Source: Methylomonas koyamae (GTDB lineage: Bacteria > Pseudomonadota > Gammaproteobacteria > Methylococcales > Methylomonadaceae). Taken from it: DNA of 64,000 nt. Of the stretch, positions 2 through 15,557 are shown in pieces. The position numbers and the translations under genes are program-made. The stretch is from NCBI RefSeq assembly GCF_006483455.1, contig NZ_PPPU01000018.1, forward strand, positions 124,001 through 188,000. The letters run 5' to 3'. How positions within the stretch are numbered: the first letter of the stretch is position 1; every line of letters starts with the position of its first letter. Below the pieces are notes generated by a model. It was not told where the DNA came from. It saw only the letters and a list, made by a program, of their open reading frames with translations, and did not search any database.

Positions 2-1387
2 TCAGGCCTGTTGGTTGGAAAGTTGAGTTTGGTATTGGGCTTTGATGCGGCGGCTTTGCTCGGCATGATTTACCCGCGGCGGCGGATAATCGCCGGCCAG
101 CGGCGCCTTTTCCCAGTTATGAATGGCTTTGGCCGAATAAGGTTGCAGTTCCGGCAGCCAGGTCTTGATGTAACGGCAGTCGGGATCGAACTTTTTCTGT
201 TGCAGCCAGGGATTGAAAATCCGGAAATAGGGTTGGGCGTCGCAGCCGGTCGACGCCGCCCACTGCCAGTTGCCGTTGTTCACGCAAGGGTCGTAATCCA
301 GCAAATGTTGGGCGAAGTAACGTTCGCCCCAGCGCCAGGACACATGCAGATCCTTGACCAGGAACGAGGCCACGACCATCCGTAGCCGGTTGTGCATCCA
401 GCCGGTCTGGTTCAGCTCCCGCATCGCGGCGTCGACGATGGGAAATCCGGTTTGGCCGTTGGCCCAGGCCCAGAAATCGTCTTGGGCGTTGCGCCAGCGC
501 AGGCCATCCAGGCGGAGGTCGAAGGCGTGGCCGAAGACGTGCGGAAAATGGTAGGCGATGTGGCTGAAAAAATCCCGCCAGTACAATTGGCGCAACAGCA
601 CATGGTCCGGTCCAAGGTGAACCTGGATGGCTTGATAGGCTTCGCGTACCGAGCAGCAGCCGAACTTCAGATACGGCGACAAATGGCTGGTGGCGTCGAG
701 TTCCGGAAAGTCGCGGGTCTCGCTGTAATCGCGCCGTGCAGTCAATGCCGATAACTGTTGCTGCGCCGCGCGCCGGCCGCCGGCAAAGGCATTCTGTTGC
801 GGCCGGCTCAAGGTTTGCAGCAGCTCGGATCTTTCCGTAGCGAGCGGCTCGCTGACCAGTCGGCCATTCGCCAGTCCGCTTGGTGCCGCCACCGGATTCT
901 GGATAGCCTTTTTATAAAAGGCGGTAAACACCTGATAGGGCAAGCCTTTGTCGGTCAGCACATATTCCGGCTCGTTCAGCAACAGATCCGCGTGGCTATG
1001 AAAGTCCAGCCCCAGTTTTTGGCAGCATTGCTGAATCTCCTGATCGCGCTCGCGGGCGAAAGGGGTGTAATCGCGGTTGACGAACACGGCTTCGATGCGC
1101 AACTGCTGTTGCAGTTGTTCGACGACCGCTTCCGGTCGATCGCCGAATAGATAGAGGCGGCCGCGGTTTGCCAGACAGTCCGCTTGCAAATCGCTTAACG
1201 ATTCCAGCATGAATTGCAGTGCCGGCCGGCTTTGGTAGGGATGGGCCTCGATCTGGCGCGGATCGAAAACGAAGCAGGTCAGCACCCGCTGCGAGCTTTT
1301 CAATGCCGCGTTCAAGGCGGTGTTGTCGGTCAGACGCAGGTCGCGGCGGAATATAAATAAGGAAGTTCGGTAACGCGGTGTGCTCAT
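2..1387 (-). CDS. phrB: Deoxyribodipyrimidine photolyase (class I CPD photolyase)
   Basis: Light-driven FAD enzyme that splits cyclobutane pyrimidine dimers in DNA. The 461-residue product has the N-terminal photolyase alpha/beta domain (FRRDLRLTDN near residue 14) and the C-terminal FAD/DNA-binding helical domain with YWRDFF, GWMHNRLRM and NNGNWQWAASTGCDAQP, as expected for class I CPD photolyases. Length is normal for the family. The open frame extends 46 codons upstream, but the ATG at 1387 is preferred because family homology begins there and the upstream stretch overlaps the preceding gene. It is the last gene of a nine-gene run that includes a LOV photoreceptor. A cryptochrome role is possible but less likely. 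Confidence 0.95.
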   Translation of the reverse strand: MSTPRYRTSLFIFRRDLRLTDNTALNAALKSSQRVLTCFVFDPRQIEAHPYQSRPALQFMLESLSDLQADCLANRGRLYLFGDRPEAVVEQLQQQLRIEAVFVNRDYTPFARERDQEIQQCCQKLGLDFHSHADLLLNEPEYVLTDKGLPYQVFTAFYKKAIQNPVAAPSGLANGRLVSEPLATERSELLQTLSRPQQNAFAGGRRAAQQQLSALTARRDYSETRDFPELDATSHLSPYLKFGCCSVREAYQAIQVHLGPDHVLLRQLYWRDFFSHIAYHFPHVFGHAFDLRLDGLRWRNAQDDFWAWANGQTGFPIVDAAMRELNQTGWMHNRLRMVVASFLVKDLHVSWRWGERYFAQHLLDYDPCVNNGNWQWAASTGCDAQPYFRIFNPWLQQKKFDPDCRYIKTWLPELQPYSAKAIHNWEKAPLAGDYPPPRVNHAEQSRRIKAQYQTQLSNQQA

Positions 1388-1392
1388 CGCGA

Positions 1393-1902
1393 TCAGCAGT
1401 CGCCCCAATGGTTGGTCATCTGCAGGCAATTGAAGAAAATGTTGGGGTAATACTGGTAAATCACCCAGCGCAGCATCAAATCCAGAACCGCCGCAACGGT
1501 CAGCAAGCGGGCCAGCACCGCCCAATGGCGGGCGCCGGTTTTATCGGAGCAGCGCCAGACCGCACCGATCCAGTAAATCAAGGGTAGGGCCATGATGATA
1601 TGCATCGTCACCCAGCTGGCGACGGTGAACTCGCCTTCCTGGATTCGATAATCGATCAGGAACAGCACGGCGTTGTACAAAACGAAAAACGGATAGAACG
1701 CGTCTTTCAAGCGCAGGTAACCCAACCAGCTCCATTGCAGGTAATAGTAAAGGCTGGGCGGTTCGCGCTCCTCCCATGCCTCTGCCGGTTCCGGCGTCAG
1801 GTAAAACACCAGCAGGCCGAGGCCGATCGCCACCAACAAGGCTTCGTACCATCTGATGAACGAGGTAAAGGCAAATAACGCGGACAGGCTGTCGATCAAC
1901 AT
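1393..1902 (-). CDS. Membrane protein of unknown function
   Basis: I do not recognise a named family. The 169-residue product has about four to five hydrophobic segments (roughly residues 18-37, 67-85, 94-114 and 126-147), a Pro/Glu-rich loop near residues 37-50 and aromatic-rich segments. It starts 21 bases after the SDR-like gene and ends 5 bases before the photolyase start, so it is surely cotranscribed with both. Context suggests a role in the light or oxidative stress response, but nothing in the sequence gives a reaction. Confidence 0.8.
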   Translation of the reverse strand: MLIDSLSALFAFTSFIRWYEALLVAIGLGLLVFYLTPEPAEAWEEREPPSLYYYLQWSWLGYLRLKDAFYPFFVLYNAVLFLIDYRIQEGEFTVASWVTMHIIMALPLIYWIGAVWRCSDKTGARHWAVLARLLTVAAVLDLMLRWVIYQYYPNIFFNCLQMTNHWGDC

Positions 1903-1923
1903 GGGATTACCGATCTTTTCGGG

Positions 1924-2832
1924 TCAGGAGTTATGCAAAATCGCGTCTAGCGCGGGCCGCAGCCGACTATACTGAAACTCGAAGCCTTGTGCCAACAGGC
2001 GTTCCGGTTTCACCCGCTGGCTGCCGAGCACCAAGGCAGCCATTTCGCCGAGCAACAATTTCAACAGTCCGGCCGGTAGCGGCAGTAACATCGGTCGGCC
2101 CAACACTTCTGCCAAGCTCAGGCTGAACTCGCGATTAGTGACCGGTTCCGGCGCCGTGGCGTTGTAGGCGCCGCTCATGGTCGGATCGGCGATCATCGCT
2201 TCGGCAGCGGCGAGCCAATCATCCAGGTGAATCCACGACATCCATTGCCGGCCGTCGCCCATGCTGCCGCCCAGGCCGAGTCGGAACGCCGGCAGCATGC
2301 GTTGTAACAAACCGCCGCCGCGGCCCAGCACCAGACCGGTACGGATCAGGCAGACCCTGCTGCCGTGATCCGCGGCGGCCAATGCCGCGGCCTCCCAGTC
2401 GGCACACAATTGTTGGGCGAAATCGGTTTTGGCCGGACTGGTCTCGCTGAGTACGCTATCGCCTTGGTCGCCGTAAATGCCGATCGCGGAGCCGTTGACC
2501 AACACCGGCGCTTTGCTGCCGGCGGCGATCCAGGCGACCAGCGCTCGAGTCAGTTCGATCCGGCTGTCGCGTAAAATCTGTTTGCGGGCTGCAGTCCAGT
2601 AACGGTCGAAAATACCGGCACCGGCCAGATTCACCACGGTGTCGAAGGCGCCGGCGTCGGGCAGATCGGCGAAGCGGGTGACCGCGCCGACAGTGCTGCC
2701 GAATTGTTGGCGAATCTTTGCCGCGTCGCGGCCAAATACGGTGACAGTGTATTGTTTGGCCAACAAGCGGCGGGTGAGGGCGCTGCCCAAGAAGCCGGTG
2801 CCACCGGTGATCAAAATCGAGGTCGAGGTCAT
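1924..2832 (-). CDS. TIGR01777-family NAD(P)-dependent epimerase/dehydratase (YfcH-like)
   Basis: 302-residue extended short-chain dehydrogenase-like protein. The nucleotide-binding GGTGFLG motif lies near residues 9-15 and the rest has the TIGR01777 layout (GSAIGIYGD, RTGLVLGRGGG, WIHLDDW, NATAPEPVTNREF), followed by the DUF1731-like C-terminus. The substrate of this family is not established. Such genes are frequently found beside photolyase and light-responsive MerR regulators in proteobacteria, which fits this context. It begins 38 bases after msrQ and is followed by a membrane protein and the photolyase. Confidence 0.9.
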   Translation of the reverse strand: MTSTSILITGGTGFLGSALTRRLLAKQYTVTVFGRDAAKIRQQFGSTVGAVTRFADLPDAGAFDTVVNLAGAGIFDRYWTAARKQILRDSRIELTRALVAWIAAGSKAPVLVNGSAIGIYGDQGDSVLSETSPAKTDFAQQLCADWEAAALAAADHGSRVCLIRTGLVLGRGGGLLQRMLPAFRLGLGGSMGDGRQWMSWIHLDDWLAAAEAMIADPTMSGAYNATAPEPVTNREFSLSLAEVLGRPMLLPLPAGLLKLLLGEMAALVLGSQRVKPERLLAQGFEFQYSRLRPALDAILHNS

Positions 2833-2870
2833 GGCGATTTCTCCAAACTTATCGGCAACAGGCTGCTGGC

Positions 2871-3512
2871 TTAGTCGGCCCGGTCCGGGTTAGCGGCTTG
2901 AGGCTTGGCAGCTGCGGTTTGCCCGAAACGGCGGTTTTTCAGCCAAACCAAGCCGCGGAAGCCCATCAACATAGCCAGCACCAATAAATAGAACAGCGGT
3001 TCCGCCAAATTGCCCTTCAATTGCCAGAAGTAATGGACGATGGCCGCGGCCGCGGCCAGGTAAATGTAACGGTGCAGTTTCTTCCAGGTTTTGCCGAGCC
3101 GCTTCTTGGCGACTTTGGGCGAGGTAACCGCCAACAGGAATAGAATCAGGTAGGCCAACACGCCGAACCACAGATAACTGCTTTGCAGGATATCGATGCC
3201 GATCAGCGGCCAAACCCAGGCCTGGTCGGCACTTAAATAACCGAGCAGGTGCAAGGTGGCATAGAAAAACGCGGTCAGGCCGAACAGTTGGCGGTAGTCG
3301 GTCATCCCGCGCCAATTGGTCATGGTTTGCAGTGGAGTGATAGCCAGTGTGATGCATAAAAAGCGCAACGACCAGTCGCCTAGGTAAATATGCATCGCCT
3401 GAATCGGGTTCGAGCCCAAACGGTTCCAGCCGATTTCCAGCAACAGCCACAGGAGCGGTGCCGCGCAGCTGACCAGAGTGATCGGCCAGAGCCGGTTGAT
3501 CAGGGCGTCCAT
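2871..3512 (-). CDS. msrQ: MsrQ, haem-binding membrane subunit of the MsrPQ methionine sulfoxide reductase
   Basis: Inner-membrane b-type haem protein that passes quinone-pool electrons to periplasmic MsrP. The 213-residue product has about six membrane segments and the ferric-reductase-like core (DWSLRFLCITLAITPLQ, RQLFGLTAFFYATLHLLGY, KLHRYIYLAAAAAIVHYFW) with the expected membrane-embedded histidines. Its ATG overlaps the msrP stop codon by one base, which signals translational coupling. Length is typical of YedZ/MsrQ. Placement in a photolyase operon suggests repair of methionines oxidised by light-generated oxidants. Confidence 0.95.
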   Translation of the reverse strand: MDALINRLWPITLVSCAAPLLWLLLEIGWNRLGSNPIQAMHIYLGDWSLRFLCITLAITPLQTMTNWRGMTDYRQLFGLTAFFYATLHLLGYLSADQAWVWPLIGIDILQSSYLWFGVLAYLILFLLAVTSPKVAKKRLGKTWKKLHRYIYLAAAAAIVHYFWQLKGNLAEPLFYLLVLAMLMGFRGLVWLKNRRFGQTAAAKPQAANPDRAD

Positions 3513-4462
3513 CAGAAGAAATGCCCCAGGTCCATATCACTGTACAAGCCTGCCACCTGTTCGCCGTAACCGTTGAACAATTCGGTCCGCCGCCGTGGCG
3601 TGAAAAAGTCGGAGCCCAGCGGCCGCTCGCTGGCCTGACTCCAGCGCGGATGCGGCACTGCCGGATTGACGTTGGCGTAGAAGCCGTATTCTTCGGGCGC
3701 AAACCGGTTCCAGCTGGTTAGAGGTGGCCTCCGGCACAGTTCGATTCTGACGATTGCTTTGGCACTCTTGAAGCCGTATTTCCAGGGCACCACCAAACGC
3801 AAGGGGGCGCCGTTCTGTTTGGGCAAGGTTTCGCCATAGGCGCCGACCGCCAGGATGGTGAGCGGATGAACCGCTTCGTCGATGCGCAAGCCTTCTTCAT
3901 AGGGCCAAGCCAACATGGCTTGTTGCCGCAGCCGCGGCATCGCTTCCGGCTGGCTGGCGCTGATGAATTTGACGAACTTGGCGGACGACAACGGTTGTGC
4001 CAGCTGTAACAAATCGCTTAGGGCAAAACCGACCCAAGGCACGACCATGGACCAGCCTTCCACGCAGCGGAAACGATACAGGTATTCGCGCAGTGGAAAG
4101 CGTTTCAGCAAATCCTCCACCCGGTAGCTGAGCGGATTTTCGACCTCGCCGCCGATCTCCACCGACCAAGGATCGATCCGCAATCGTTGAGCCAAACGGG
4201 TGCTGTCTTCTTTATTGAAGGCAAACTCGTAATAGTTGGTGTAATTCAGCATCAACTCGGCTGGGGTTGCTGTCAAACCGAGAGTTTGCGGACCGCCGGG
4301 CGGCAGAGCCGACCAGTTTCGCGGCCTTGCGTTGGCGGTGTCTGCGGCGGAAACGCCTACCGCAAGCGCGGCGATGGCCTTCATTAAGGTACGCCGTTGC
4401 CTGAATACTGCCGGATCGGTAATCTCGCTGCTCGGAATGGGTTGGCGGGTTTGAATCAACAT
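3512..4462 (-). CDS. msrP: MsrP, periplasmic molybdopterin methionine sulfoxide reductase
   Basis: Catalytic subunit of the MsrPQ system, which reduces methionine sulfoxide in envelope proteins. The 316-residue product starts with a twin-arginine signal (QRRTLMK near residue 23, then an Ala-rich hydrophobic stretch), followed by the sulfite-oxidase fold. The Mo-ligating cysteine is in RFRCVEGWSM, and downstream PWKYGFKSAKAIV is characteristic. It is immediately upstream of and coupled to msrQ. The Tat motif departs slightly from the SRRxFLK consensus but keeps the twin arginines and the downstream Lys. Confidence 0.95.
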   Translation of the reverse strand: MLIQTRQPIPSSEITDPAVFRQRRTLMKAIAALAVGVSAADTANARPRNWSALPPGGPQTLGLTATPAELMLNYTNYYEFAFNKEDSTRLAQRLRIDPWSVEIGGEVENPLSYRVEDLLKRFPLREYLYRFRCVEGWSMVVPWVGFALSDLLQLAQPLSSAKFVKFISASQPEAMPRLRQQAMLAWPYEEGLRIDEAVHPLTILAVGAYGETLPKQNGAPLRLVVPWKYGFKSAKAIVRIELCRRPPLTSWNRFAPEEYGFYANVNPAVPHPRWSQASERPLGSDFFTPRRRTELFNGYGEQVAGLYSDMDLGHFF

Positions 4463-4513
4463 AGTTGTGGCCGACAGTAGGAGGCGAGACTCGCGCTCAG
4501 ACGTTACCGGACC

Positions 4514-5335
4514 TTATTTCTTACCTTTCGGAATCCAGCCGAGCAGTTGGCGGATTTTCCGTTCGGTAATGAAGGCCAGCGAAAATAACTGGATGAAGTT
4601 TTCGGCTTCGATCAGATCCAGGCCGATATTGGCCGGGACCATTTCTTTGCGGGTGCCGAACATCCGGTCCCACAGCGCCAGCACGATGCCGTAATTGCTG
4701 TCGTGTTCGCTGCGTAGGGTGGAGTGGTGAGTGCGGTGTAACGCCGGGGTGATGATGAATTGCGATAGCGCATCTTCGTTCGGCACGCGGATATTGGCGT
4801 GGTGGAAAAAGATGAAAAACAACTCGACGATTTCGATCGACAGCACCAAGTAGGCATCGACGCCGATCACCACCACGAACAGGCACTTATAGCCGATTTC
4901 CAGCAGTAAATCGAACACGTGAAACCGGAAGCCGGTCGACACGTTAAACGACTTGTCGCTGTGGTGAATCTTATGAAACCGCCATAAATATTCCGATTTG
5001 TGGCTGGCATAGTGCCAGGCGTAAATCGCCAGATCGAAACAGGCGAAAGCCAGCAGCCATTTCAGCGGTCCGTTGGGCATCGCACTCAATAAGCCGTGCC
5101 CAGCGAATTGCTGAGCGACCAGAAACAAAGACGAGGCTCGCAGAATCGCCAGAATCAGGTTGTTTACCAGGAAGGCCATGGTGTTGGTGACAATCGATTC
5201 CTTATACACCTTGGGTGGGAAATAGCGGTAAGGCCGTTTCTTTTCCAGCGCCAGCAAGAACAAAAAAGCCAGTATCGCCAAGCCGAACAGGCCTTGGTTG
5301 AATAACATGCCGTTTTCACTGCCGATTGCGTTCAT
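4514..5335 (-). CDS. Sterol desaturase / fatty acid hydroxylase superfamily protein
   Basis: 273-residue integral membrane di-iron oxygenase-like protein. It carries the superfamily's histidine clusters: HYASH, FHKIHHSD, a later FFHHANI, and HRTHHS, between hydrophobic segments. Family members hydroxylate or desaturate sterols, fatty acids, carotenoids or hopanoid-type lipids; the substrate here cannot be told from sequence. It sits between the LOV gene (21 bases away) and msrP (51 bases away), so a lipid modification linked to light or oxidative stress is inferred. Length and cluster spacing are typical. Confidence 0.88.
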   Translation of the reverse strand: MNAIGSENGMLFNQGLFGLAILAFLFLLALEKKRPYRYFPPKVYKESIVTNTMAFLVNNLILAILRASSLFLVAQQFAGHGLLSAMPNGPLKWLLAFACFDLAIYAWHYASHKSEYLWRFHKIHHSDKSFNVSTGFRFHVFDLLLEIGYKCLFVVVIGVDAYLVLSIEIVELFFIFFHHANIRVPNEDALSQFIITPALHRTHHSTLRSEHDSNYGIVLALWDRMFGTRKEMVPANIGLDLIEAENFIQLFSLAFITERKIRQLLGWIPKGKK

Positions 5336-5356
5336 GGCGTCACCGGTTGCTTGGAG

Positions 5357-5812
5357 TTAAGGGCGCGAGCTAGCGTTCAGTAGGTCGGTCAGACTTTTGA
5401 TTTCGGTATCGGCATCGACCTGATGAGTAATGTCGTATTGCACGCCGAGGTAATAAATAACCCGTTGTTTACGGTCGAACAACGGCACGATTTTGAGCCG
5501 GTTATGAAACAAGCTGCCGTCCTTACGGTAATTGCGTAGCGTGACTTCGACCGCTTCGTGACGCTGCATCGCCTCCGCAATTTGGAAGCGCGCGTCTTGG
5601 TCGCGGTCCTTGCCTTGCAAAAACCGACAATTGTGGCCGATGATTTCGTCCTGGCTATACCCGGTCAAGCGTTCGAAGGCTTTGTTGGCATAAACGATCG
5701 GTGCGTCTTCTTGGTCTGGGTCGGCAAGCGTCACGCCATTCACGCATTCGTCAAGAATGGCCGACAACACTTGCGGAATCAGTCCGTTATCTTTTTCAAC
5801 GACAAAAGCCAT
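5357..5812 (-). CDS. Short LOV blue-light photoreceptor (PAS/LOV domain alone)
   Basis: 151-residue protein that is essentially one LOV domain. The flavin-adduct motif GHNCRFLQG places the reactive cysteine at residue 62. The FMN-contacting asparagines (NYRKDG and FHNRLKI) and the glutamine in YLGVQYDIT are all present, so photochemistry should be intact. There is no kinase, GGDEF or HTH output domain; only short N-terminal and C-terminal helices flank the core, as in the short LOV proteins known from Pseudomonas. It lies 12 bases after the SRPBCC gene and in the same run as a photolyase. It may signal by dimer rearrangement to an unknown partner. Confidence 0.93.
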   Translation of the reverse strand: MAFVVEKDNGLIPQVLSAILDECVNGVTLADPDQEDAPIVYANKAFERLTGYSQDEIIGHNCRFLQGKDRDQDARFQIAEAMQRHEAVEVTLRNYRKDGSLFHNRLKIVPLFDRKQRVIYYLGVQYDITHQVDADTEIKSLTDLLNASSRP

Positions 5813-5824
5813 AAATACACTCCA

Positions 5825-6322
5825 CTAAGCTTGGGCTGTTGGATTGGAATCGTACATAATCAGATTTTTGATCTGTTCTACGGTGTTTTCCGCGCCTTCT
5901 TCGATCGCGCAACGGATCAGTTTTTCGAAAGGCCGCATGAATATGTCCAGTTGCAGAAATTCGAACCGGAAGGTAAGGCGGGTCTGCGGCCGGTCGCCCT
6001 CCGGCTGTAGCAGGTAACTTTGTCGGTAAGGCTGGGTCAGGCCTTGCACGGCCAGCTTGGTCAGGGGTTGGTACTCGGCAATTTCGAATACCGATTCGAC
6101 TTCTTCGCCGCTGTCGTGGCGAATCTGCCGGGCTTTGGCGCCGACAAAGACTTGTTCGCCGTCCAATGGCTCGAAATCCACCAAGTCTGCCGCCCATTTT
6201 GGGTAATTTTCAAAAAAGTCGTGGCCGACGAACTCGAATACCTCACTTAATGGTTGTTCTATCTCGATACTGGCCTCGGCGGCCACCGGTTTGTTGGCGT
6301 CGAACGGTAGTTTGATTTGCAT
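5825..6322 (-). CDS. SRPBCC (START-like) family protein
   Basis: 165-residue product with a polyketide-cyclase/START-like pattern: an early ASIEIEQPLSEVFEFV strand-helix unit followed by alternating strands and a long C-terminal helix. The family binds hydrophobic ligands; no catalytic residues are evident. The open frame extends further upstream, but the ATG at 6322 is chosen because it has a strong purine-rich ribosome site (GGGGGA about 7 bases before) and the extra N-terminus is Arg/Ala-rich and not family-like. A GC-rich hairpin at 6368-6385 separates it from the preceding gene. Function unknown. Confidence 0.85.
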   Translation of the reverse strand: MQIKLPFDANKPVAAEASIEIEQPLSEVFEFVGHDFFENYPKWAADLVDFEPLDGEQVFVGAKARQIRHDSGEEVESVFEIAEYQPLTKLAVQGLTQPYRQSYLLQPEGDRPQTRLTFRFEFLQLDIFMRPFEKLIRCAIEEGAENTVEQIKNLIMYDSNPTAQA

Positions 6323-6390
6323 TGCTGCTTCCCCCTGGTTGGCGGCGCTGAGAAACGCCAGGTGAGGCCGGACTTTCCTGTCCGGTCTGC

Positions 6391-6816
6391 TTATGATCGC
6401 GGCCGCGGATCGCGCAGCGCGGCGCATGCTCCGTAGAGTAAGTGCGATAAACCGGAGTAAACCAAAAGCTGGCGGTAGTTGTCGTCTACTTCGATCTGGT
6501 TGATTGAACAATAGAACTCAAGCGAGGCAATCAACAACAGAAAAAATATGCCTAATGCCGCCAACGCTTCCGGCCGGTTGTCCAGTTTGTAGAAACTATA
6601 GACCGCAACTTGCATCAAGCACAGATAAAACATCATCAGCCGCATGTTATTGGCCAATGGCCCGTACAAATCGCTGTTATCGGTAAAAAACAGTGGATTG
6701 CCGAGTATGGCGGCGATGCCGCCGATCAGTAGCGTAATCACGGCGGCATTGAAATTGACCTGCAACACCAGCTGCAAAAAATTTAAGGTTCTAACGGATG
6801 CTGTTTGGTTTTGCAT
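6391..6816 (-). CDS. Small multi-pass membrane protein of unknown function
   Basis: 141 residues with about four hydrophobic segments (near residues 20-40, 58-76, 85-102 and 115-131). I do not recognise the family. It is the first gene after the ftsH terminator and has a good ribosome site (AGAGG). It is followed by the SRPBCC, LOV and downstream stress genes in the same direction, so it probably heads or joins that transcript. The N-terminus is short and cytoplasmic-looking; no signal peptide is evident. Confidence 0.75.
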   Translation of the reverse strand: MQNQTASVRTLNFLQLVLQVNFNAAVITLLIGGIAAILGNPLFFTDNSDLYGPLANNMRLMMFYLCLMQVAVYSFYKLDNRPEALAALGIFFLLLIASLEFYCSINQIEVDDNYRQLLVYSGLSHLLYGACAALRDPRPRS

Positions 6817-6830
6817 ATTGCTAACCTCTG

Positions 6831-6868
6831 AAAAAAATACCCTCCAGGAGTACAGCGTTTGGAGGGTA
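6831..6868 (-). terminator. Rho-independent terminator after ftsH
   Basis: On the minus strand a perfect 9-bp stem (TACCCTCCA at 6838-6846 pairing with TGGAGGGTA at 6860-6868, 13-base loop) is followed by seven T residues. It lies 15 bases after the ftsH stop and only about 15 bases before the ATG of the next minus-strand gene, leaving almost no room for a separate promoter. Confidence 0.85.
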
Positions 6869-6883
6869 CATAGAGGAGGACTG

Positions 6884-8797
6884 TTAAGAAGCGAGTGCGC
6901 TTCCTTGACTGATTTGGCCGTCGGCTTCGCTGGAGAGTTCCGGCTGGTCCGTCTCGGCTTCGAAAGTCATTTCAGGTTCAGGTTCCGGTTGCGGCGGTTC
7001 GATCATCCGGCCCTGCATCAGTTCGTCGATTTGGAATTTATCGATGGTTTCCCAATCCATCAGGGCTTGCGCCATGTTGTGCAGGATCTCGATGTTTTCC
7101 TTCAGGATGTTCTCAGCACGTTTGTAATTGCTGTCTATCACATGCCGGATTTCTTCGTCGATGGTTTGCGCCATTTTTTCCGACATCGGTTTGGCTTGCG
7201 GCCCCATGTACCCGCCCTCGCTATCGCCGTAGTCCATCGGACCCAACCGCTCGGACAAGCCCCATTTGGTCACCATATTGCGGGCTAGTTGGGTGGCGCG
7301 CATGATGTCGTTGGAGGCGCCGGTAGTCACTTTGTTTTTACCGTAGATCAGTTCTTCGGCAACCCGGCCGCCGAACAGACTGGCGATCTGGCTTTCCAGT
7401 TTGTCCTTGGAAGCGCTGTACTGATCGCGCTCCGGCAGGAACATGGTGATGCCCAGGGCGCCGCCGCGCGGCATGATGCTGACTTTGTAAACCGGGTCGT
7501 GCTCGGGTACATTGCGGCCGACGATCGCGTGGCCGGCTTCATGGTAAGCGGTCATCAACAAGTCTTCCTTGGACATGATCATCGTCCGTTTTTCGGCGCC
7601 CATGATCATTTTGTCGCGCGCTTTGTCCAGGTCGTTCATGGTCACGACTTTCTTATTATTGCGTGCCGCGAACAAGGCGCCTTCGTTGATCAGATTCGCC
7701 AGTTCAGCGCCGGAGAAACCCGGTGTGCCGCGCGCCAAATCGGTCAGATTCACGTCTTCGGATAGCGGTACCCGGTCGCCGTGGACTTTCAGAATTTGCT
7801 CGCGGCCTTTGATATCGGGCAAACCGACCTGGACCTGGCGGTCGAAGCGGCCCGGCCGTAACAGGGCTTTGTCGAGAATGTCCGAGCGGTTGGTCGCGGC
7901 GATGACGATGATGCCTTCGCTACCGCTGAAACCGTCCATTTCTACCAGCAACTGGTTCAAGGTTTGCTCGCGCTCCTCGTTACCGCCGCCCATGCCGGCG
8001 CCGCCGCGTTGGCGGCCAACCGCATCGATCTCGTCGATAAAGATGATGCAAGGGGCACGTTTTTTGGCTTCGGTGAACATGTCCCGCACCCGTGCCGCAC
8101 CGACGCCGACGAACATTTCGACGAAATCGGAACCGGAGATCGAGAAGAAGGGGACGCCCGCTTCGCCGGCTATGGCTTTGGCCAGCAGCGTTTTACCGGT
8201 ACCCGGAGGGCCAACCATCAACACGCCGCGCGGAATCTTGCCGCCCAGCGCTTCGTATTTGCCGGGATCGCGCAGGAAATCGACCATTTCTACCACGTCG
8301 TGCTTGGCTTCTTCGCAGCCGGCGACGTCTTTGAAGCGGATCTTGATCTGGTCCTCGGCCATCAATTTGGCCCGGCTTTTGCCGAACCCCATTTGGCCGT
8401 CGCGGCCGCCCATCGCTGCGGCCTGCTTGCGCATGAAGTAGACCAGCACGGCGATCAGCAACAGGGTCGGCGCCCAGGAAATAAAGATTTGCATCAGGGT
8501 GGACGGTTGTTGCGGTTTTTCCACCTTGATTTTCACCCCGTATTCCAGCAACTCGTCGATCATTCGCATGTCGTTCGGGTTGTAGGTGGAGAACCGGGTG
8601 CCGTTCGGACGGCGGCCGTCGACGTAATTGCCGTCGATCACCACTTCCTCTACCGCTTTGTTGCGGACGTCTTCGATAAAGTCGGAATACGAAATTTCGT
8701 AGTGCGGATCGTATTGCGGCATGCCGCGGTTGAAAATGGCCGAGATGATCAAACCGACCGCAGCGAAAATCGTCAGAATAATGAAATACTTTTTCAT
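6884..8797 (-). CDS. ftsH: FtsH ATP-dependent zinc metalloprotease
   Basis: Membrane-anchored AAA+ protease that extracts and degrades damaged membrane proteins and regulatory substrates. The 637-residue product has two N-terminal membrane segments (about 4-22 and 106-121) flanking a periplasmic domain, Walker A GPPGTGKT at 196-203, Walker B IIFIDEID, the SRH arginines and the zinc site HEAGH, plus a charged C-terminal tail. It follows hflC by 15 bases, whereas gammaproteobacterial ftsH is usually beside rrmJ/folP. The unusual context suggests an accessory copy tied to the upstream sigma factor and light regulator, but a second copy cannot be seen here. Confidence 0.96.
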
Positions 8798-8812
8798 GAT
8801 TTCGCTCCGGTG

Positions 8813-9676
8813 TTATTTCTCGCTGGAGAAATATTTGAAGAAATCCGAGTTCGGCTTCAGCACCAAGGTATCCTGCGTTTTCTCGAAGGAGGTTTGATAG
8901 GCCTGCAGACTGCGGTAGAACGCATAAAACTCCGGATTTTTGCCGAAACTCTTAGCGTAAATCTCGGCCGATTGAGCGTCGCCGCGACCGCGGATATTCT
9001 CGGCGTCGCGTTGGGCATTGGCGACGATCACTTGTTTCTGCTTATCGGCTTCGGCGCTGATCTGCTCGGCGCTTTCCGCACCCTGCGAGCGGAATTCGCG
9101 GGCGACCCGCTCCCGTTCGGCGCGCATGCGCTGGAATACCGAGCTACTCACTTCCTGCGGCAGATCAATCCGTTTGATGCGGATATCGATCAGCTCGATG
9201 CCGAATTTCTCGGCGGTCGGCGACAACTTGGCCAACAGCGTTTCGCGCAATTCGCTACGGTCTTCCGAGATCAATTGCTTGATGGTACGCACGCCGAATT
9301 CGCTGCGCATCGCGTCTTTCATGATTTGGTCGAGGCGGAGATTGGCTTGAAACTCGTCGCCGCCGACCGTGGTATAAAAGAGGCCCACATCACCTATCCG
9401 CCATTTGGCGAACGAGTCGACAATAACGTTCTTCTTTTCGGAGGTAAGAAAACGCTCGGACTTGGCGTCCAAGGTCAGCACGCGCGCATCAAACGTACTG
9501 ACATTATTGATGAGGGGGGCCTTAAAGTGGAGTCCGGGCTTGTAGTCGGATTCGACCATCTCGCCGAGACGAAATAGAATGGCTTTCTCGTGTTCCTTCA
9601 CGTAGAAAACCGACATGTAACCGAGTACCAACAGGGACAGACCGGCTGGAATCAAAATTTGGGTTCTGCTGCTCAT
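8813..9676 (-). CDS. hflC: HflC, SPFH-domain modulator of FtsH
   Basis: 287-residue membrane-anchored band-7/prohibitin-like protein that forms the HflKC assembly around FtsH. There is one N-terminal membrane segment (about residues 8-24), then the SPFH domain and a long Ala/Glu-rich coiled coil (EQISAEADKQKQVIVANAQ region) with a short tail. The ATG at 9676 overlaps the hflK stop as ATGA, so the two are translationally coupled. It is followed directly by ftsH. Length and architecture are typical. Confidence 0.95.
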   Translation of the reverse strand: MSSRTQILIPAGLSLLVLGYMSVFYVKEHEKAILFRLGEMVESDYKPGLHFKAPLINNVSTFDARVLTLDAKSERFLTSEKKNVIVDSFAKWRIGDVGLFYTTVGGDEFQANLRLDQIMKDAMRSEFGVRTIKQLISEDRSELRETLLAKLSPTAEKFGIELIDIRIKRIDLPQEVSSSVFQRMRAERERVAREFRSQGAESAEQISAEADKQKQVIVANAQRDAENIRGRGDAQSAEIYAKSFGKNPEFYAFYRSLQAYQTSFEKTQDTLVLKPNSDFFKYFSSEK

Positions 9677-10836
9677 TGTTTGCTCCTGCTTGGGCGTAAA
9701 TCGGTGCCGACGGTTTTGCGGACCGCGCCTTTATCGGCGTTGTGCGGTTCGGATACCGATTCGACTTCGTTATTGCCGGCTGCGCCGGTGCCGTGTTGTT
9801 GGAAGGTTTGCGGCATCGGCATGTACAGCGTTGGATTGGTATTGTCGGCTTCGAGCATCACTTTGTTAGTGTTGCTGTACAGTTTTTCTTTGGCTTCCAG
9901 GTACAGGCGCTTGCGGGTGATGGCCGGGCTTTTTTCGTATTCCACCAGCAGTTGGTCGAAGCGTTCGGTTTCGCCTTTGGCTTTGGCGACTTTTTCCGCT
10001 TCGTAGGCTTCGGCTTCCTGCACAATCCGTCCCGCCGCACCGCGGGCCTTCGGAATCACTTCGTTGGCGTAGGCTTCGGCTTCGTTGATCAGGCGTTGTT
10101 TATCCTCGCGGGCGCGGATGGCGTCTTCGAAGGCGCCTTGCACTTCCTCGGGCGGTTGCGCATCTTGTAGATTGACGCTGGCGATGCTGATACCGGTTTT
10201 GTATTCATCCATGCCGGCCTGAATCTGTTCCTTGATTTCGGCAACAATCTGGCTACGGCCTTCGGTCAGGACGAAGTCCATACTGTTGCGGCCGATCACG
10301 GCCCGCTCGACGCTCTCGGTCAGTTGTTTCAACGTGTTTTCGTTGTTCTTGACGTTGAACAGATAATCTCTGGCGTTATTAATTTGGTATTGAACCGCTA
10401 AGCGCACGGCGATGATGTTTTCGTCGGCGGTCAGCATTAACGACTCTTGCGGAATCAGCGACGATTTGCTGACACGGCTGCTGTCGGTATAGCCCACTTC
10501 AATGAAGCGTTGCTGTTCGACGTTGACGATAGCCTCGTTCTCGAACGGCACCGGAATGTGCCAGTTCGGGCCGGGCATCGTGGTTTCCGAGTAGGCGCCG
10601 AAGCGGGTTACCACGCCGCGGTTGCCTTGGTCGACGATGTAGAAGCCGCTGGCCAGCCAGACCACCGCCAAGGTGCCGCCGAACGCAGAAGCCACTTTCC
10701 CGGTGGAAAACATGCTTTTGTGGCCGTTGAAAAAATCGCCGGTCTTTTCCGACACCTGCTTCCAATACTTGTCTATCTCCAGCCTCCAATCCGGTTGTGG
10801 CGTCTGCTTACTGGTATTGTGTTTTTCTGATGACAT
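9673..10836 (-). CDS. hflK: HflK, SPFH-domain modulator of FtsH
   Basis: Partner of HflC in the membrane assembly that controls FtsH access to substrates. The 387-residue product has one membrane segment (about residues 51-70), an SPFH domain (GVVTRFGAYSETTMPGPNWHIP) and a coiled-coil half (NEAEAYANEVIPKARG), with a disordered tail. A GTG at 10842 is in frame, but the ATG at 10836 is favoured because GAGGAG lies 5 bases before it. The N-terminus lacks the Gly-rich stretch common in E. coli-type HflK. It begins about 50 bases after the sigma factor gene, so the order is sigma-hflK-hflC-ftsH. Confidence 0.94.
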   Translation of the reverse strand: MSSEKHNTSKQTPQPDWRLEIDKYWKQVSEKTGDFFNGHKSMFSTGKVASAFGGTLAVVWLASGFYIVDQGNRGVVTRFGAYSETTMPGPNWHIPVPFENEAIVNVEQQRFIEVGYTDSSRVSKSSLIPQESLMLTADENIIAVRLAVQYQINNARDYLFNVKNNENTLKQLTESVERAVIGRNSMDFVLTEGRSQIVAEIKEQIQAGMDEYKTGISIASVNLQDAQPPEEVQGAFEDAIRAREDKQRLINEAEAYANEVIPKARGAAGRIVQEAEAYEAEKVAKAKGETERFDQLLVEYEKSPAITRKRLYLEAKEKLYSNTNKVMLEADNTNPTLYMPMPQTFQQHGTGAAGNNEVESVSEPHNADKGAVRKTVGTDLRPSRSKQ

Positions 10837-10886
10837 AATCACTCCTCTTGTAGTGTTCGCCTGACCTGAGTCATTGATTGTTATTG

Positions 10887-12116
10887 TTAACCGTCCTTGG
10901 GTTCGAGAAATAGCATAAGGTCAAAGCCGAACTGTTGTTTCAATTTTTTTAACGCTTCGTTCTGGATTTGCCGGACTCGTTCTCGAGTAACATGCAGTTG
11001 GTCGGCAACGGCTTGCAAAGTCATTTCCGTGTGATCGCGCAAGCCGAAGCGCATCGTCAGAATCGCTGCCTGTTTTTCCGGTAACGACGCCACCGCTTTG
11101 TCGACGTATTGAGCTAGATCGTTGTCGATTAGTTCATCGAGCGGCAGACTGAACTGGTGCTGTTGCATCTTCGCCATCAGATCCAGCCCGTCGTCTTCGT
11201 CGCCGATTGTGGCGTCCAGGGAGTGTGTGGATTGGTAATAACTGCTGATGGTTTTGATCTCTTGTTCGGTCAGGTCGCAGCAGGCCTTGAGCTCGGCGAT
11301 GCTTGGCCAGCGTTCGGTCTTTAGGTAGCAGTTGCGCATGGCCTCGAACACTACCGAGGCTTTTTCCGCCAAGGCCACCGGCAAACGCACGATTTTTTCC
11401 TGTTTGACGATCAAGCGCGATATGGCTTGTTTGATCCAATAGATAGCGTAAGTCGAAAAGCAGATGCCGCGTTCCGCATCGAAACGGTCGACCGCTTTAA
11501 TCAAGCCGACCAAGCCTTCTTGCATCAGATCGTCGAAACTGAGGTTGTTGGTTTTGTATTTGTGGGCCACGAACGCCACCAATCCGGTGTTGGCCGATAT
11601 GGTTTGCTGGCGGATGGTTTTCAATTCGCGAATTGCCACTTTGAGTTCGGCTGAATAATCAGAGTCTAGGGCGGGATCAGTGGCCAGCGTTTTCAGGATG
11701 TCGCCGGCGCTATCGATCAGGAACACCGGCAACAAGTGCAAGCTGTACAACAACTGGTTTACTGTACGCCGGTGTGGGTCCAAAAGTTGTACAATGTTTT
11801 GCGGCTGTACAACTTCTTGCGCGGCTTTGAAGTTGGCTGCGGTATTTTGTACAAGTGACTCTTGCTTGTACAACAGTTCTATCAGGCGCTTGGCTTCGTC
11901 CGAATTTTTCGCAATCATCAATTCGGAGCAATCGATGCCTCGCTGCAGTTCGTTGAGTAAACGTTTGGCTATCAGCGGACTAACCTGCTGATTATCAAGC
12001 AATAACTGGTTGAGACGGTTCCGGGCTTGCTCCATGCGCACGCTTAAGGTGCCTGGCTCGGCATCCGCGATAGTGACTGTCTCGCTAGCAAAGGATAGTG
12101 CGACTGTATTAGACAT
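10887..12116 (-). CDS. Sigma-70-family RNA polymerase sigma factor (RpoD-like, group 2 type)
   Basis: 409-residue sigma factor. An N-terminal segment of about 180 residues has little recognisable homology. It is followed by region 2 (LVAFVAHKYKTNNLSFDDLMQEG and ERGICFSTYAIYWIKQAI), region 3 and region 4 with a helix-turn-helix ending in VTRERVRQIQNEALKKL. It is too long and complete to be an ECF factor and does not look like the housekeeping RpoD because region 1.1 is absent. It is divergent from a CarH-type light regulator with a 91-base gap and heads hflKC-ftsH. This pairing implies a light- or stress-responsive sigma factor. Its own coding DNA contains an unusual cluster of TGTACA sites. 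Confidence 0.88.
   Translation of the reverse strand: MSNTVALSFASETVTIADAEPGTLSVRMEQARNRLNQLLLDNQQVSPLIAKRLLNELQRGIDCSELMIAKNSDEAKRLIELLYKQESLVQNTAANFKAAQEVVQPQNIVQLLDPHRRTVNQLLYSLHLLPVFLIDSAGDILKTLATDPALDSDYSAELKVAIRELKTIRQQTISANTGLVAFVAHKYKTNNLSFDDLMQEGLVGLIKAVDRFDAERGICFSTYAIYWIKQAISRLIVKQEKIVRLPVALAEKASVVFEAMRNCYLKTERWPSIAELKACCDLTEQEIKTISSYYQSTHSLDATIGDEDDGLDLMAKMQQHQFSLPLDELIDNDLAQYVDKAVASLPEKQAAILTMRFGLRDHTEMTLQAVADQLHVTRERVRQIQNEALKKLKQQFGFDLMLFLEPKDG
11744..11872. promoter_or_regulatory. Cluster of TGTACA palindromes inside the sigma factor gene
   Basis: Five exact TGTACA sites start at 11744, 11788, 11806, 11848 and 11867, with a near match TGTACG at 11763. They fall in differing codon registers (Leu-Tyr as TTG-TAC, Val-Gln as GTA-CAA), so they are not one repeated peptide. 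The same core occurs at 12191 in the sigma/carH promoter region. An intragenic operator array is an inference. Confidence 0.4.
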
Positions 12117-12159
12117 AATCGTTTCGCTCGTTGAATTAAGTTGTTGGCAAATACGTTAC

Positions 12160-12207
12160 TAGATTGTAAAATGTTTGTCAAAATAAAATATGTACAAAAC
12201 GTGAACA
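12160..12207. promoter_or_regulatory. Divergent carH/sigma promoter with 11-bp-spaced operator-like repeats
   Basis: The 91-base gap holds TGTAAA (12165) and TGTCAA (12176) exactly 11 bases apart, and TGTACA (12191) and TGAACA (12202) also 11 bases apart. Known CarH operators contain tandem 11-bp direct repeats, so this is a plausible CarH binding region. On the minus strand TTGACA (12181-12176) is a perfect -35 hexamer for the sigma gene and coincides with the second repeat, so binding would block it; the -10 is poor. The last repeat abuts the carH ATG. Confidence 0.6.
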
Positions 12208-13110
12208 ATGTACTCAATTAAAGCCATTACATCGTTAACGGGTTTGACACCGGAAACGCTAAGAGCCTGGGAACGCCGCTATGCTTGTGTCACGCCGGCG
12301 CGCAACGACACCGGCAGGCGGTTCTATTCGCAGCAGGATCTGGACAAGTTGACGCTGCTGGTGAACTTGACCGGGCAAGGGCATTCCATCGGTAAACTCG
12401 CCGGTCTGAGCTGGCAACAGCTCAGCGATTTGCAAAACCAGTCTGAACTACAGCAGCGGCGCGAGCCGGTGCCGTTTCTGGAGCAAATTGCAGATGCCTT
12501 GCGCGAATACCGTATCGAACGTTGCGAGCAGTTATTGAAGAAAGCGTTGCTGGTCAGCGAGCCGTTGGACTACGCCCGCGACGTTTTGTTGCCGGCGATG
12601 CAAAAGGTCGGGGATTTGTGGCACCGGGGCAAAATCAACATCGCCCAGGAGCATATGTTCTCGTCCTGCGTGAAACGGATCGTGCTAAGTATGGTGAACA
12701 ATCTGCATCGCCATTCCCGCAACAATCCGGGGATTATGTTGGCCACGCCCAGCGGCGAGCCGCACGAATTCGGCATATTGGTCAGTTGCTTGATCGCCGC
12801 GGCGCAGAACTACAATTGCTATTACCTGGGTGCAGATTTACCGGCGGAAGACATCATCGAAGCAGCGCGGCACTTGGCGCCTGAGTTATTGGTGATCGGC
12901 ATGGTGAAAACCCCGCCGGAAGCGGTTACGGTCGAGCATTTGCACCGACTGCTGGATGCGGCCCGGCAGGACGATTTGAAAGTCTGGTTGGGCGGTGGCG
13001 GTGCGTTGTATTTGTTGGGCGCGGAAGATCCTGCGGTCGCCAACGTAGATGTCGTCTCCGATATCGACCAATTCAACGCCAAGATCCGGCAGCAGCGGAT
13101 TTCACATTAA
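12208..13110 (+). CDS. carH: CarH/LitR-type adenosylcobalamin photoreceptor transcriptional regulator
   Basis: 300-residue MerR-family repressor with a light-sensing vitamin B12 domain. The MerR helix-turn-helix occupies residues 1-70 (LRAWERRYACVTPAR). Next come the four-helix bundle with the CarH hallmark W138-x9-E148-H149, and a Rossmann-like B12 domain with E184-x-H186-x-x-G, whose histidine is the lower cobalt ligand. In known CarH proteins these residues bind adenosylcobalamin in the dark and light breaks the tetramer to release DNA. The start at 12208 matches the family N-terminus exactly; no Shine-Dalgarno is visible, so it may be leaderless. It is divergent from the sigma factor gene. 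Confidence 0.93.
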   Translation: MYSIKAITSLTGLTPETLRAWERRYACVTPARNDTGRRFYSQQDLDKLTLLVNLTGQGHSIGKLAGLSWQQLSDLQNQSELQQRREPVPFLEQIADALREYRIERCEQLLKKALLVSEPLDYARDVLLPAMQKVGDLWHRGKINIAQEHMFSSCVKRIVLSMVNNLHRHSRNNPGIMLATPSGEPHEFGILVSCLIAAAQNYNCYYLGADLPAEDIIEAARHLAPELLVIGMVKTPPEAVTVEHLHRLLDAARQDDLKVWLGGGGALYLLGAEDPAVANVDVVSDIDQFNAKIRQQRISH

Positions 13111-13111
13111 A

Positions 13112-13134
13112 CCGGCCGGTAGGCCGGCAGTATT
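13112..13134. terminator. GC-rich hairpin between convergent genes
   Basis: CCGGCC (13112-13117) and GGCCGG (13122-13127) form a six-bp stem with a four-base loop, followed by CAGTATTTAT. It sits between carH and the convergent hydrolase gene and may act as a weak terminator in both directions. The T-run is poor. Confidence 0.4.
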
Positions 13135-13147
13135 TATCGCAGCGTCG

Positions 13148-13792
13148 CTAAGAAGCGACGACTTGGCCGACGTAAGGGTTGCTGCGCATTTCGGCGCCGA
13201 AAGTCGACATCGGGCCGTGGCCGGGAATGAATTTGACGTCTTCGCCCAGCGGCCAAAGCTTGTTGACGATCGAATCGATCAAGGTCTGGTAATCGCCTTT
13301 CGGGAAATCGGTGCGGCCAATCGAACCTTTGAACAGCACGTCGCCCACCAACGCCAGTCGTTCCGTCTCGCTGAAAAACACCACATGGCCGGGGGTATGG
13401 CCAGGGCAGTGGAGGACCTGTAACACTTCGTTGCCGACCTTGACCGTGTCGCCGTCGTTGAGCCAGCGCTGCGGCGTGAAGCCGGCCGACTGCGGAAAGC
13501 CGAACATGCGGCATTGTTCCGGTAACAATTTGATCCAGAAATCGTCTTCCAGCTGCGGCCCGATGATCGGTAACGACAATTTTGCGGCCAATTCGGCAGT
13601 GCCGCCGACATGATCCAGATGGCCGTGGGTCAACAGTAAGGCCTCCAGTTCGACTTCTTGTTTTTTTACTTCGCTGAGCAACAAATCAATGTCGCCGCCC
13701 GGATCGACCAAAGCGGCTTTATGGGTTTGTTCGCAGACGAGTAGGGTGCAGTTTTGTTGGTAGGCTGTGACGGGGATGATGGTGTAGCGCAT
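13148..13792 (-). CDS. MBL-fold metallo-hydrolase (glyoxalase II-like)
   Basis: 214-residue metallo-beta-lactamase-fold hydrolase. The metal motif THGHLDH lies near residue 63, with later GHTPGH, the GD of ALVGDVLF, and PGHGP completing the dinuclear zinc/iron site. It resembles the YcbL-type short glyoxalase II group, which hydrolyses S-lactoylglutathione-like thioesters; the exact substrate is not certain. A 13-codon upstream extension exists but the ATG at 13792 matches the family start (MRYTIIPV). It stands alone between carH and the sucAB-linked gene. Confidence 0.9.
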   Translation of the reverse strand: MRYTIIPVTAYQQNCTLLVCEQTHKAALVDPGGDIDLLLSEVKKQEVELEALLLTHGHLDHVGGTAELAAKLSLPIIGPQLEDDFWIKLLPEQCRMFGFPQSAGFTPQRWLNDGDTVKVGNEVLQVLHCPGHTPGHVVFFSETERLALVGDVLFKGSIGRTDFPKGDYQTLIDSIVNKLWPLGEDVKFIPGHGPMSTFGAEMRSNPYVGQVVAS

Positions 13793-13809
13793 GGAAGTTG
13801 AATTGAGGG

Positions 13810-14349
13810 TTAGTCCCAGGCACCTTGACATTTCTGGTTTTGTTCAGTGAGGCGGCCGTTTTTTAGAGTGATATCAGCTGTTGATTTTCTAGTTGGAAAA
13901 TTCGGCGCATCATTCTCTGTATTTTCCAGAACATCAAGCGTGAAAACCTTATCACCATGGGTGTTTAAATAGGTTGTTTTTACATCAAGCTTCGGGATTG
14001 TCCGGCACCCCTTACCGCCTACAGGCATGAAGTCAACCAATGGGTAACTATCTGGTTTGCCATTCTCGCCTTCTCCAAATTCGAAAACAGCCAGATATTG
14101 AGTCCAGCCGTTGCCGCCGGTGTAACCTTCAAGAGTAAAAATTGCCAGAAAGTTAACCGCAATTGAATTTAGGCTGATGGCTTGTACTTCCCAAGATTTC
14201 GACGGAGAGGAGCCGTATGAGTCACTTAATAATTCAGTCAGCTTTTTTATTTGAATCTCTAGCTCAGCAGGGATACCGGATTTTGTGGTTTCGGCATGTC
14301 CTATTGAAATGAAGCAAGTTAATAAAACAACTAACCCAAAGAATCTCAT
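13810..14349 (-). CDS. Putative secreted protein of unknown function
   Basis: 179-residue product that I do not recognise. The first 21 residues form a signal peptide (MRFFGLVVLLTCFISIGHAE, cleavage after GHA), giving a predicted periplasmic protein with two cysteines (GKGCRTI and NQKCQGA) that could form a disulfide. A longer upstream frame exists but overlaps sucB in another frame and is rejected. It lies 17 bases after sucB in the same direction, where lpd is often found, yet it has no resemblance to a dehydrogenase. Base composition is a little lower in GC than its neighbours. Confidence 0.7.
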   Translation of the reverse strand: MRFFGLVVLLTCFISIGHAETTKSGIPAELEIQIKKLTELLSDSYGSSPSKSWEVQAISLNSIAVNFLAIFTLEGYTGGNGWTQYLAVFEFGEGENGKPDSYPLVDFMPVGGKGCRTIPKLDVKTTYLNTHGDKVFTLDVLENTENDAPNFPTRKSTADITLKNGRLTEQNQKCQGAWD

Positions 14350-14366
14350 ATAAATGCAATCGATTT

Positions 14367-15557
14367 TTAGATGTTCAACAGCAAATGCGCCGGAGCTTCC
14401 AAGCATTCCTTGATGATGCCGAGGAATTGCACCGCTTCCTTGCCGTCCACCAGACGGTGGTCGTAGGACAAGGCCAGGTACATGATCGGCCGGATCACGA
14501 TTTCGCCGTTCTCGACCACCGGCCGGTCCTTGATCGCATGCATGCCCAAAATCGCGCATTGCGGCGGGTTTAAGATCGGTGTGGACAGCATCGAGCCGAA
14601 GATGCCGCCGTTGGTGATGGTAAAGGTGCCGCCGCTGAGGTCTTCGACGCTGATCGAGCCGTTGCGGGCTTTGTTGCTGAAGTCGTGGATGCCTTTTTCG
14701 ATGCCGGCGAAATCGAGCTGGTCGGCGTCGCGCAAAATCGGCACGATCAAGCCGCGCTGAGTCGTGACGGCGATACCGATGTCGTAATAACCGTGGTAGA
14801 TGATGTCGTTACCGTCGATCGAGGCGTTGATGGCCGGGAAGCGTTTCAAGGCTTCGATGGACGCCTTGACGAAAAACGACATGAAGCCGAGTTTGATGTT
14901 GTGCTTGGCTTCGAACCGGTCTTTATATTGGTTGCGCAGTTCGATGACCGCTTTCAGGTTGACTTCGTTGAAGGTGGTTAACATTGCCGCGTTTTGTTGG
15001 GCCTGCAACAGCCGCTCGGCAACCTTGGCCCGCAACCGGGTCATTGGTACCCGTTGCTCAGGCCGCAATGCGGCAATAGCCGTCGCGGAAAGCGGAGAAT
15101 GGCTACTGTCGGCCGCTGAAGCAACCACGGCGGGCGCCGGTTCCGGCTGCACTTGCTGGTCTTGCAAATAGTCCAGCACGTCGCTTTTCAGAATCCGGCC
15201 GTGTTTGCCGGAGCCGTGGATTGAGCTTGGGTCCAGTTCCTTTTCGGCTACCAGTTTGCGGACCGACGGGCTGAGCGGGGCTTCTTCCGGCTTTGCCGCC
15301 GGCGCGGCCGTCTTGGCGCTCTGCACATCGAGCTTGGCCAGCAACTGGCCACCGACGACGGTTTCGCCGTCTTGAACGACGATGGCTTCCAGTGTGCCGG
15401 ATTTGGGGGCCGGTACTTCCAGAATCACTTTATCGGTTTCCAGGTCGGCCAGGTTTTCGCCTTCGTTGACCCATTCTCCGGCCTGTTTGTGCCAAGCGAC
15501 CAGCGTGGCGTCGGACACCGATTCGGGGAGGCTGGGTACCAAAATATCAAAGCTCAT
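14367..15557 (-). CDS. sucB: Dihydrolipoyllysine succinyltransferase, E2 of 2-oxoglutarate dehydrogenase
   Basis: Core subunit of the 2-oxoglutarate dehydrogenase complex of the TCA cycle; it transfers the succinyl group to CoA. The 396-residue product has an N-terminal lipoyl domain (lipoylated Lys in ETDKVILE near residue 43), an Ala/Pro-rich linker, a peripheral-subunit-binding domain ([13 protein letters not shown]), and the catalytic domain ending in [13 protein letters not shown]. The ATG at 15557 has AAGGAAA upstream and overlaps the sucA 3' end by 11 bases, so translation is coupled. No lpd follows in the window. Confidence 0.97.

Follow-up and report, generated by a model that had tools for sequence, protein, structure and literature searches.

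Organization of the locus

The window analyzed here, 64,000 nucleotides of Methylomonas koyamae DNA (G000:C9:124001-188000 of a 4.54-Mb genome), opens with a 13-kb stretch in which carH, a plus-strand gene for a predicted CarH-type B12 photoreceptor, is divergent from 13 packed minus-strand genes. Read away from carH, these encode a sigma-70-family sigma factor, HflK, HflC, FtsH, a 141-residue membrane protein, an SRPBCC protein, a short LOV protein, an FA_hydroxylase-family oxygenase, MsrP, MsrQ, a TIGR01777 oxidoreductase, a 169-residue protein and a photolyase-family protein, with gaps of at most 68 nt between chosen starts and stops (Table 1). The gap between carH and the sigma gene holds a CarH-type operator sequence, and the divergent pair is conserved together with ftsH in other genera, which points to control of the sigma factor, HflKC and FtsH by CarH. 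Library scans and reading of the frames bore out the genes, order and strands given in the earlier note on this DNA, including its nine-gene run after ftsH. Its account of the extent of the run held within the window, but the run extends beyond that edge into lipocalin and DUF523-DUF1722 genes outside the window (~G000:C9:122520-123997); next comes a GspE/PilB-like gene, identified by reading alone. Terminator-like matches in the region were near the shuffle level (23 found; shuffle mean 18.7, standard deviation 5.5).

CarH looks intact, as the note had supposed, and of the class I CarH/LitR type. Its MerR, B12-binding_2 and B12-binding domains stand in the same order as in the class I proteins of Thermus thermophilus, Bacillus megaterium and Myxococcus xanthus, with which it also shares the B12-site residues; the B12-binding domain (PF02310) scores exactly at the Pfam cut-off, 32.1 bits. 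Residues W138, E148, H149 and H186 align with the Wx9EH motif and the second His of Thermus CarH, the latter of which we take to bind cobalt from below. Relatives were sought in 121 family genomes sampled evenly from a larger group, with the sigma factor and CarH as queries (threshold for a CarH match, E 1e-25), and CarH matches of >=46% identity were assigned to clade A and those of 29-34% to clade B. All four residues are kept, by alignment column, in 29/29 clade-A proteins, several of which are near-identical; among 19 clade-B proteins, the Glu and both His are kept throughout and the Trp in 16. About 9 kb past the window end, a further sequence matches the B12-binding domain and contains an in-frame TGA (G000:C9:196763-197008, L003); it is possibly a decayed gene.

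A predicted CarH operator in the shared promoter region

Thermus CarH binds an 11-bp repeat, nAnnTnnACAn, which occurs in three tandem copies in Thermus and four in B. megaterium, and the CarA/CarH operator at PB of M. xanthus overlaps a TTGACA -35 element, according to excerpts of PMC8156234. Four such repeats lie between carH and the sigma gene as two tandem pairs, one per strand. The minus-strand pair contains both TTGACA (12181-12176), by eye the likely -35 of the sigma promoter, and TAAAAT, the -10 of the predicted carH promoter, so that one operator would serve both promoters. Repeats overlapping a -35 are thus common to this locus and the known class I systems, whereas the layout of one tandem pair per strand differs from the single tandem row of the known operators. 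CarH binding and both promoters are predictions; at the level of sequence, an operator of the CarH type spans the promoter region that precedes sigma-hflKC-ftsH.

The joint repeat score in the window is 19/20 positions, a value equaled by 0/2000 dinucleotide shuffles, and in 17/19 further loci the score was reached by <=1/400 shuffles; the two-pair layout was defined after sight of these sequences, and the counts, from trials that are not independent, serve as a guide. The best plus pair occupies -21..0 in 14/20 loci; for the best minus pair the position is -44..-23 in 15/20. Many of these loci are close kin (L018 and L057 are nearly identical here); 4/24 loci tried gave no carH start by pattern. 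Promoter-like matches in the region did not exceed those in shuffles (7 found, 7.4 expected). One genome with a clade-A carH and no sigma gene, G098, has carH divergent to hflK itself, with a 9/10 repeat pair in between; a 144-residue open reading frame in the place of the sigma gene was considered and is not sigma-like.

When the whole M. koyamae genome was searched with the minus-strand pair pattern, only this site was found at <=1 mismatch, and at <=3 mismatches there were 26 sites compared with 24 in the control. The perfect tandem pattern gave five sites compared with three in the control; the other four are on C3, C5, C11 and C31, and only the one described here has been placed at a promoter. 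A perfect-pattern site on C11 was rejected as a further operator, lying inside an open reading frame among RHS-like repeats, and we claim no further direct CarH target in the genome.

Conservation of the carH-sigma-ftsH core

A CarH match was present in 67/121 genomes, 26 of them with a clade-A protein; clade-B matches numbered 42, and G043 has one of each. The sigma factor was found in 25 genomes as 26 copies, and it is divergent to the clade-A carH in 25/26 genomes, with 91-450 bp between the matches and G098 as the exception. We read 20 sigma loci, from 19/25 sigma genomes besides the window; five genomes were not fetched, and some contigs end inside the locus. An ftsH gene is present in all 20 (truncated in G110); 19 also have carH, the exception being the second copy of G107. 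The rest of the run is more variable: hflK with hflC in 15 loci, the 141-residue protein in 16, the TIGR01777 gene in 12, photolyase in 7 (in G043 on the carH side), the LOV gene in 5 and msrP with msrQ in 4. Among the eight closest sigma matches in named genomes (L057-L064), carH is divergent in 8/8 and ftsH is present in 6/8, the contig ending first in the other two. The three genes stay linked at 40-60% sigma identity while the cargo varies, and because this core is conserved in other genera chance can be excluded as its origin. The earlier note had made its reading depend on such synteny in relatives, and the synteny is there.

The second copy in G107 (L020, G107:C94) is a sigma-hflK-hflC-ftsH set without carH, with a transposase gene ~0.9 kb behind ftsH. 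In G084 the sigma-ftsH run carries, in place of the Methylomonas cargo, a fusion of the blue-light domain BLUF with PsiE (L030:8130-9014), and genes similar to it occur in L139, L141, L142 and L150, near the clade-B carH of other genera.

Clade-B carH genes meet ftsH in a different arrangement. Among 19 of the 42 clade-B matches that were fetched, ftsH adjoins carH in six, in G027 and G028 with a more distant sigma factor, sigma2 (see below), and in G029, G053, G074 and G090 without a recognized sigma; in G007, sigma2 lies downstream of carH. The resulting proportion, 7/19, is not unbiased, as G027, G028, G053 and G007 were picked on suggestive coordinates and three more as members of the genus of G053. 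At the clade-B locus of G014 (L150), SRPBCC-LOV-FA_hydroxylase-MsrPQ genes and a BLUF-PsiE gene adjoin carH, and photolyase and DUF523-DUF1722 genes lie close.

The sigma factor and its FtsH

Regions 2, 3 and 4 of the sigma factor score over the Pfam cut-offs. It falls below the NCBIfam cut-offs for RpoS (196.5 of 378.7), the RpoD C-terminal region (191.4 of 354) and RpoH (119.7 of 323.1), and among the matches listed (25 of 53 families) only the sigma-70 superfamily model passes. The FtsH has AAA, M41 and FtsH_ext domains, and the genes for its partners HflK and HflC adjoin. It is one of four in the genome (E 1e-60), the others being an orphan 78% alike, one copy 66% alike and one 45% alike.

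In a tree of 61 FtsH proteins, a clade of 30 rows (100/100) unites 20 copies that accompany the sigma factor and clade-A carH with eight that have no adjacent carH, mostly orphans, and with the long rows L073 and L145. A further clade (27 rows, 100/99) consists mainly of FtsH encoded behind sigma2 and includes the six copies linked to clade-B carH. The 66% copy lies outside both, and we assume that it is the housekeeping enzyme. The sigma tree, from a short search with long rows present, has the same two-way split. A sigma-FtsH pair is thus widespread in the group, with carH coupled to a single line of it.

Sigma2, ~33-45% alike, stands before ftsH in many Methylococcales, with varied upstream genes and no carH in the stretch read (L037-L041, L043-L045, L056, L065-L074, L076, L079, L085, L098 and L117). 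At one such locus (L044, G042, 7004-16836), DUF523-DUF1722, photolyase and TIGR01777 genes lie within ~7 kb. In a cyanobacterial metagenome-assembled genome (L126, 9866-12847), a sigma gene directly precedes an FtsH gene (45% alike).

A separable LOV cassette and other cargo

The LOV protein has 151 residues, a LOV domain without an effector domain and an NCRFLQ motif with the photoactive Cys, which fits a short LOV of the PpSB type. Its nearest solved structures are 5luv and 3sw1, presumably PpSB2-LOV and PpSB1-LOV. A close LOV (E 1e-45) occurs in 60/121 genomes, in 46/67 of those with a CarH match and 14/54 of those without (Fisher p 3.7e-6, kinship ignored). At 20 short LOV loci (<=1.5 kb per side), two of them cut by contig ends, LOV has SRPBCC before it in 19 and FA_hydroxylase after it in 19, with msrP visible in 16; three g29 loci have no msrP in the stretch. 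The LOV genes are joined to the operon in 6/8 sampled genomes of the window's genus (G038 and G117 have no LOV) and in L062. On these sequences, SRPBCC-LOV-FA_hydroxylase forms, in most cases with msrP, a cassette of its own that has been joined to the operon in Methylomonas, and because it occurs independently the superlocus comprises at least two modules plus photolyase companions. A CarH operator was rejected as a general feature of the cassette, a tandem pair of 9/10 or better being found in 1/19 upstream stretches (L174, 10/10). A dyad, GTTGAG..CTCAAC, stands just before the cassette start in L150, L160, L164, L165, L168, L170, L172, L174 and L176, which represent several genera, and is not clear in the window; it has apparently matched changes (GCTGAG..CTCAGC) and may represent either an RNA hairpin or an operator.

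MsrP and MsrQ, encoded by adjacent genes, both score over their NCBIfam cut-offs. The photolyase has photolyase and FAD-binding Pfam domains and falls below the cut-offs of the NCBIfam models (361 of 884.6 and 345 of 506 bits). The model of the 141-residue protein encoded after ftsH has a predicted local distance difference test score of 84.8; it has no fold match in the PDB (best E 0.72), and its best Pfam match, a TRP-channel model, is weak (E 0.0081).

Table 1. Genes and predicted regulatory elements of the carH-sigma-ftsH locus, in window positions
Feature	Position	Strand	Description	Basis
carH	12208..13110	+	MerR-type repressor, both B12-binding domains, predicted light sensor	Pfam; 3whp/5c8d best structure matches
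Predicted CarH operator	12187..12208	+	Tandem pair of 11-bp repeats	10/10 positions; consensus PMC8156234
Predicted CarH operator	12164..12185	-	Tandem pair; contains likely sigma -35 and predicted carH -10	9/10
Predicted carH promoter	12144..12172	+	TTGGCA-17-TAAAAT	Promoter scan, 10/12
Sigma factor	10887..12116	-	Sigma-70 family, regions 2-4; ~165 N-terminal residues without Pfam match	
hflK	9673..10842	-		TIGR01933, 313 vs cut-off 159 bits
hflC	8813..9676	-		TIGR01932, 296 vs cut-off 134 bits
ftsH	6884..8797	-	Walker A GPPGTGKT, HEAGH	TIGR01241, 826 vs cut-off 600 bits
141-residue membrane protein	6391..6816	-	Predicted four long helices; no family	
SRPBCC protein	5825..6322	-	Polyketide_cyc2; ATG start chosen over longer TTG frame	Pfam
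Short LOV protein	5357..5812	-	NCRFLQ motif	Pfam, motif, structure matches
FA_hydroxylase-family oxygenase	4514..5335	-		PF04116
msrP	3512..4462	-		NF003767, 425 vs cut-off 207 bits
msrQ	2871..3512	-		NF003831, 158 vs cut-off 130 bits
TIGR01777 oxidoreductase	1924..2832	-	ThyD model 266 of 400, below cut-off	335 vs cut-off 207 bits
169-residue protein	1393..1902	-	Membrane-like by reading; no family	Library scans
Photolyase-family gene	2..1387	-	ATG start chosen over longer TTG frame	Pfam domains over cut-off

Discussion

The arrangement of the locus raises the question of what a B12 photoreceptor would control in a methanotroph. We consider it probable that CarH binds the shared promoter region in the dark and that light, by breaking the B12 ligand, releases the sigma-hflK-hflC-ftsH operon together with the repair genes that follow. 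In this mechanism CarH would bind adenosylcobalamin, and the dark form would sit on the operator and repress both the operon and carH itself. Illumination would free the operon and raise its transcription, the whole minus-strand run presumably being one transcript; the dedicated FtsH-HflKC would then remove photo-oxidized membrane proteins, MsrPQ would repair periplasmic methionines and the photolyase DNA, and the sigma factor would carry the response to further promoters. The sequence supports CarH control of sigma-HflKC-FtsH well, given the conserved divergence of carH and sigma, the linkage to ftsH, the dedicated FtsH clade and the operator repeats, and light induction is a prediction from it. 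What the earlier note had observed is confirmed, and its interpretation is partly supported: a CarH-type operator does stand before sigma-hflKC-ftsH, but its proposal that two sensors control the whole run lacks support in that form, the LOV protein belonging to a separate cassette and occurring in 14 genomes without a CarH match and in 5/20 sigma loci.

Several results weigh against CarH control. The CarH score is far below the NCBIfam CarH equivalog cut-off (122.3 vs 400 bits), and we therefore do not claim that narrow name. The -10 of the sigma promoter, as judged by eye (TAACGT), is poor, and the promoter scan gave no such promoter; the repeats are weak in L033 and L035, where 8 and 27 of 400 shuffles did as well. 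The hflKC genes are missing or broken in 5/20 loci and ftsH truncated in one, and in 12/19 clade-B loci carH has no sigma gene or ftsH near it. Finally, because many members of the group have a sigma2-ftsH pair with no carH alongside, the pairing of a sigma factor with FtsH is not specific to light.

The last of these points also favors an alternative in which the operon serves membrane stress in general under its own sigma factor, with CarH reporting B12 supply or merely limiting its own gene and light as a minor signal. FtsH and HflKC are, moreover, general quality-control proteins. Nevertheless, the divergent carH and its operator are conserved with the sigma factor, photolyase accompanies 7/20 loci and the L030 run includes a BLUF gene, and we regard this alternative as unlikely. 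Less likely again is a scheme in which light enters mainly through the short LOV protein, which when lit would bind CarH and lift repression. This has a precedent in Pseudomonas mendocina, in which illuminated PmSB-LOV keeps PmlR2, a class II LitR, from binding DNA (PMC9758184, excerpts), and a LOV of the same kind, to judge from its best PDB matches, lies here in the same run as carH and is commoner in genomes with a CarH match, kinship ignored. That 14/60 LOV genomes have no CarH match and that so few sigma-ftsH loci carry a LOV gene nonetheless speak against it, as does the retention of both B12 domains by CarH, one of which class II LitR lacks. It is very improbable that the genes are neighbors by descent only, without common control. 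The clade-A loci do share a family and a common descent; even so, the carH-sigma-ftsH grouping persists at 40-60% sigma identity as the cargo changes around it, a different arrangement brings clade-B carH next to ftsH, and the conserved operator sits in a non-coding gap.

If CarH does control the operon, the locus differs from known light-responsive systems mainly in its target. In the excerpted accounts of PMC8156234 and PMC9758184, class I CarH/LitR proteins act mainly on carotenoid genes, whereas here the first target would be a sigma gene followed by hflKC-ftsH. The Pseudomonas LitR-LOV systems (PmlR/PplR) share with this locus a MerR-type LitR relative, a short LOV and a photolyase, the PplR-dependent light genes of P. 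putida including phrB; the genes named in the excerpts of PMC9758184 include no FtsH, HflKC or sigma factor, and here CarH has both B12 domains and the LOV lies in a separable cassette. A full-text search of open-licence papers, judged by titles and the starts of abstracts, found no link between CarH/LitR and FtsH, methanotrophs included, in agreement with the statement in the earlier note that a connection of FtsH-HflKC to a light regulator was not known as described.

In E. coli, FtsH works with HflK and HflC and degrades sigma-32. The same three proteins are encoded here, with sigma, hflKC and ftsH in one run behind carH and the FtsH an extra copy among four, and the sigma factor is a possible FtsH substrate. 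In cyanobacteria and plants, FtsH repairs photosystem II; the parallel, a membrane protease for protein turnover under light, is an analogy only. We speculate that FtsH could degrade the co-encoded sigma factor and so end the pulse. More broadly, and tentatively, since we think it rather doubtful, the locus may represent light-driven membrane-protein repair in a non-phototroph, in which the CarH-released sigma-FtsH-HflKC set clears photo-oxidized proteins from the methane-oxidizing membranes, much as photosystem II is renewed. If CarH control of the operon is borne out, B12 light sensing, so far tied mainly to carotenoid and photolyase-type genes, would reach regulated membrane proteolysis via a sigma factor, in bacteria that limit methane release. 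Light effects on methane oxidation in lakes are under discussion, and the locus would then offer a genetic handle on those effects.

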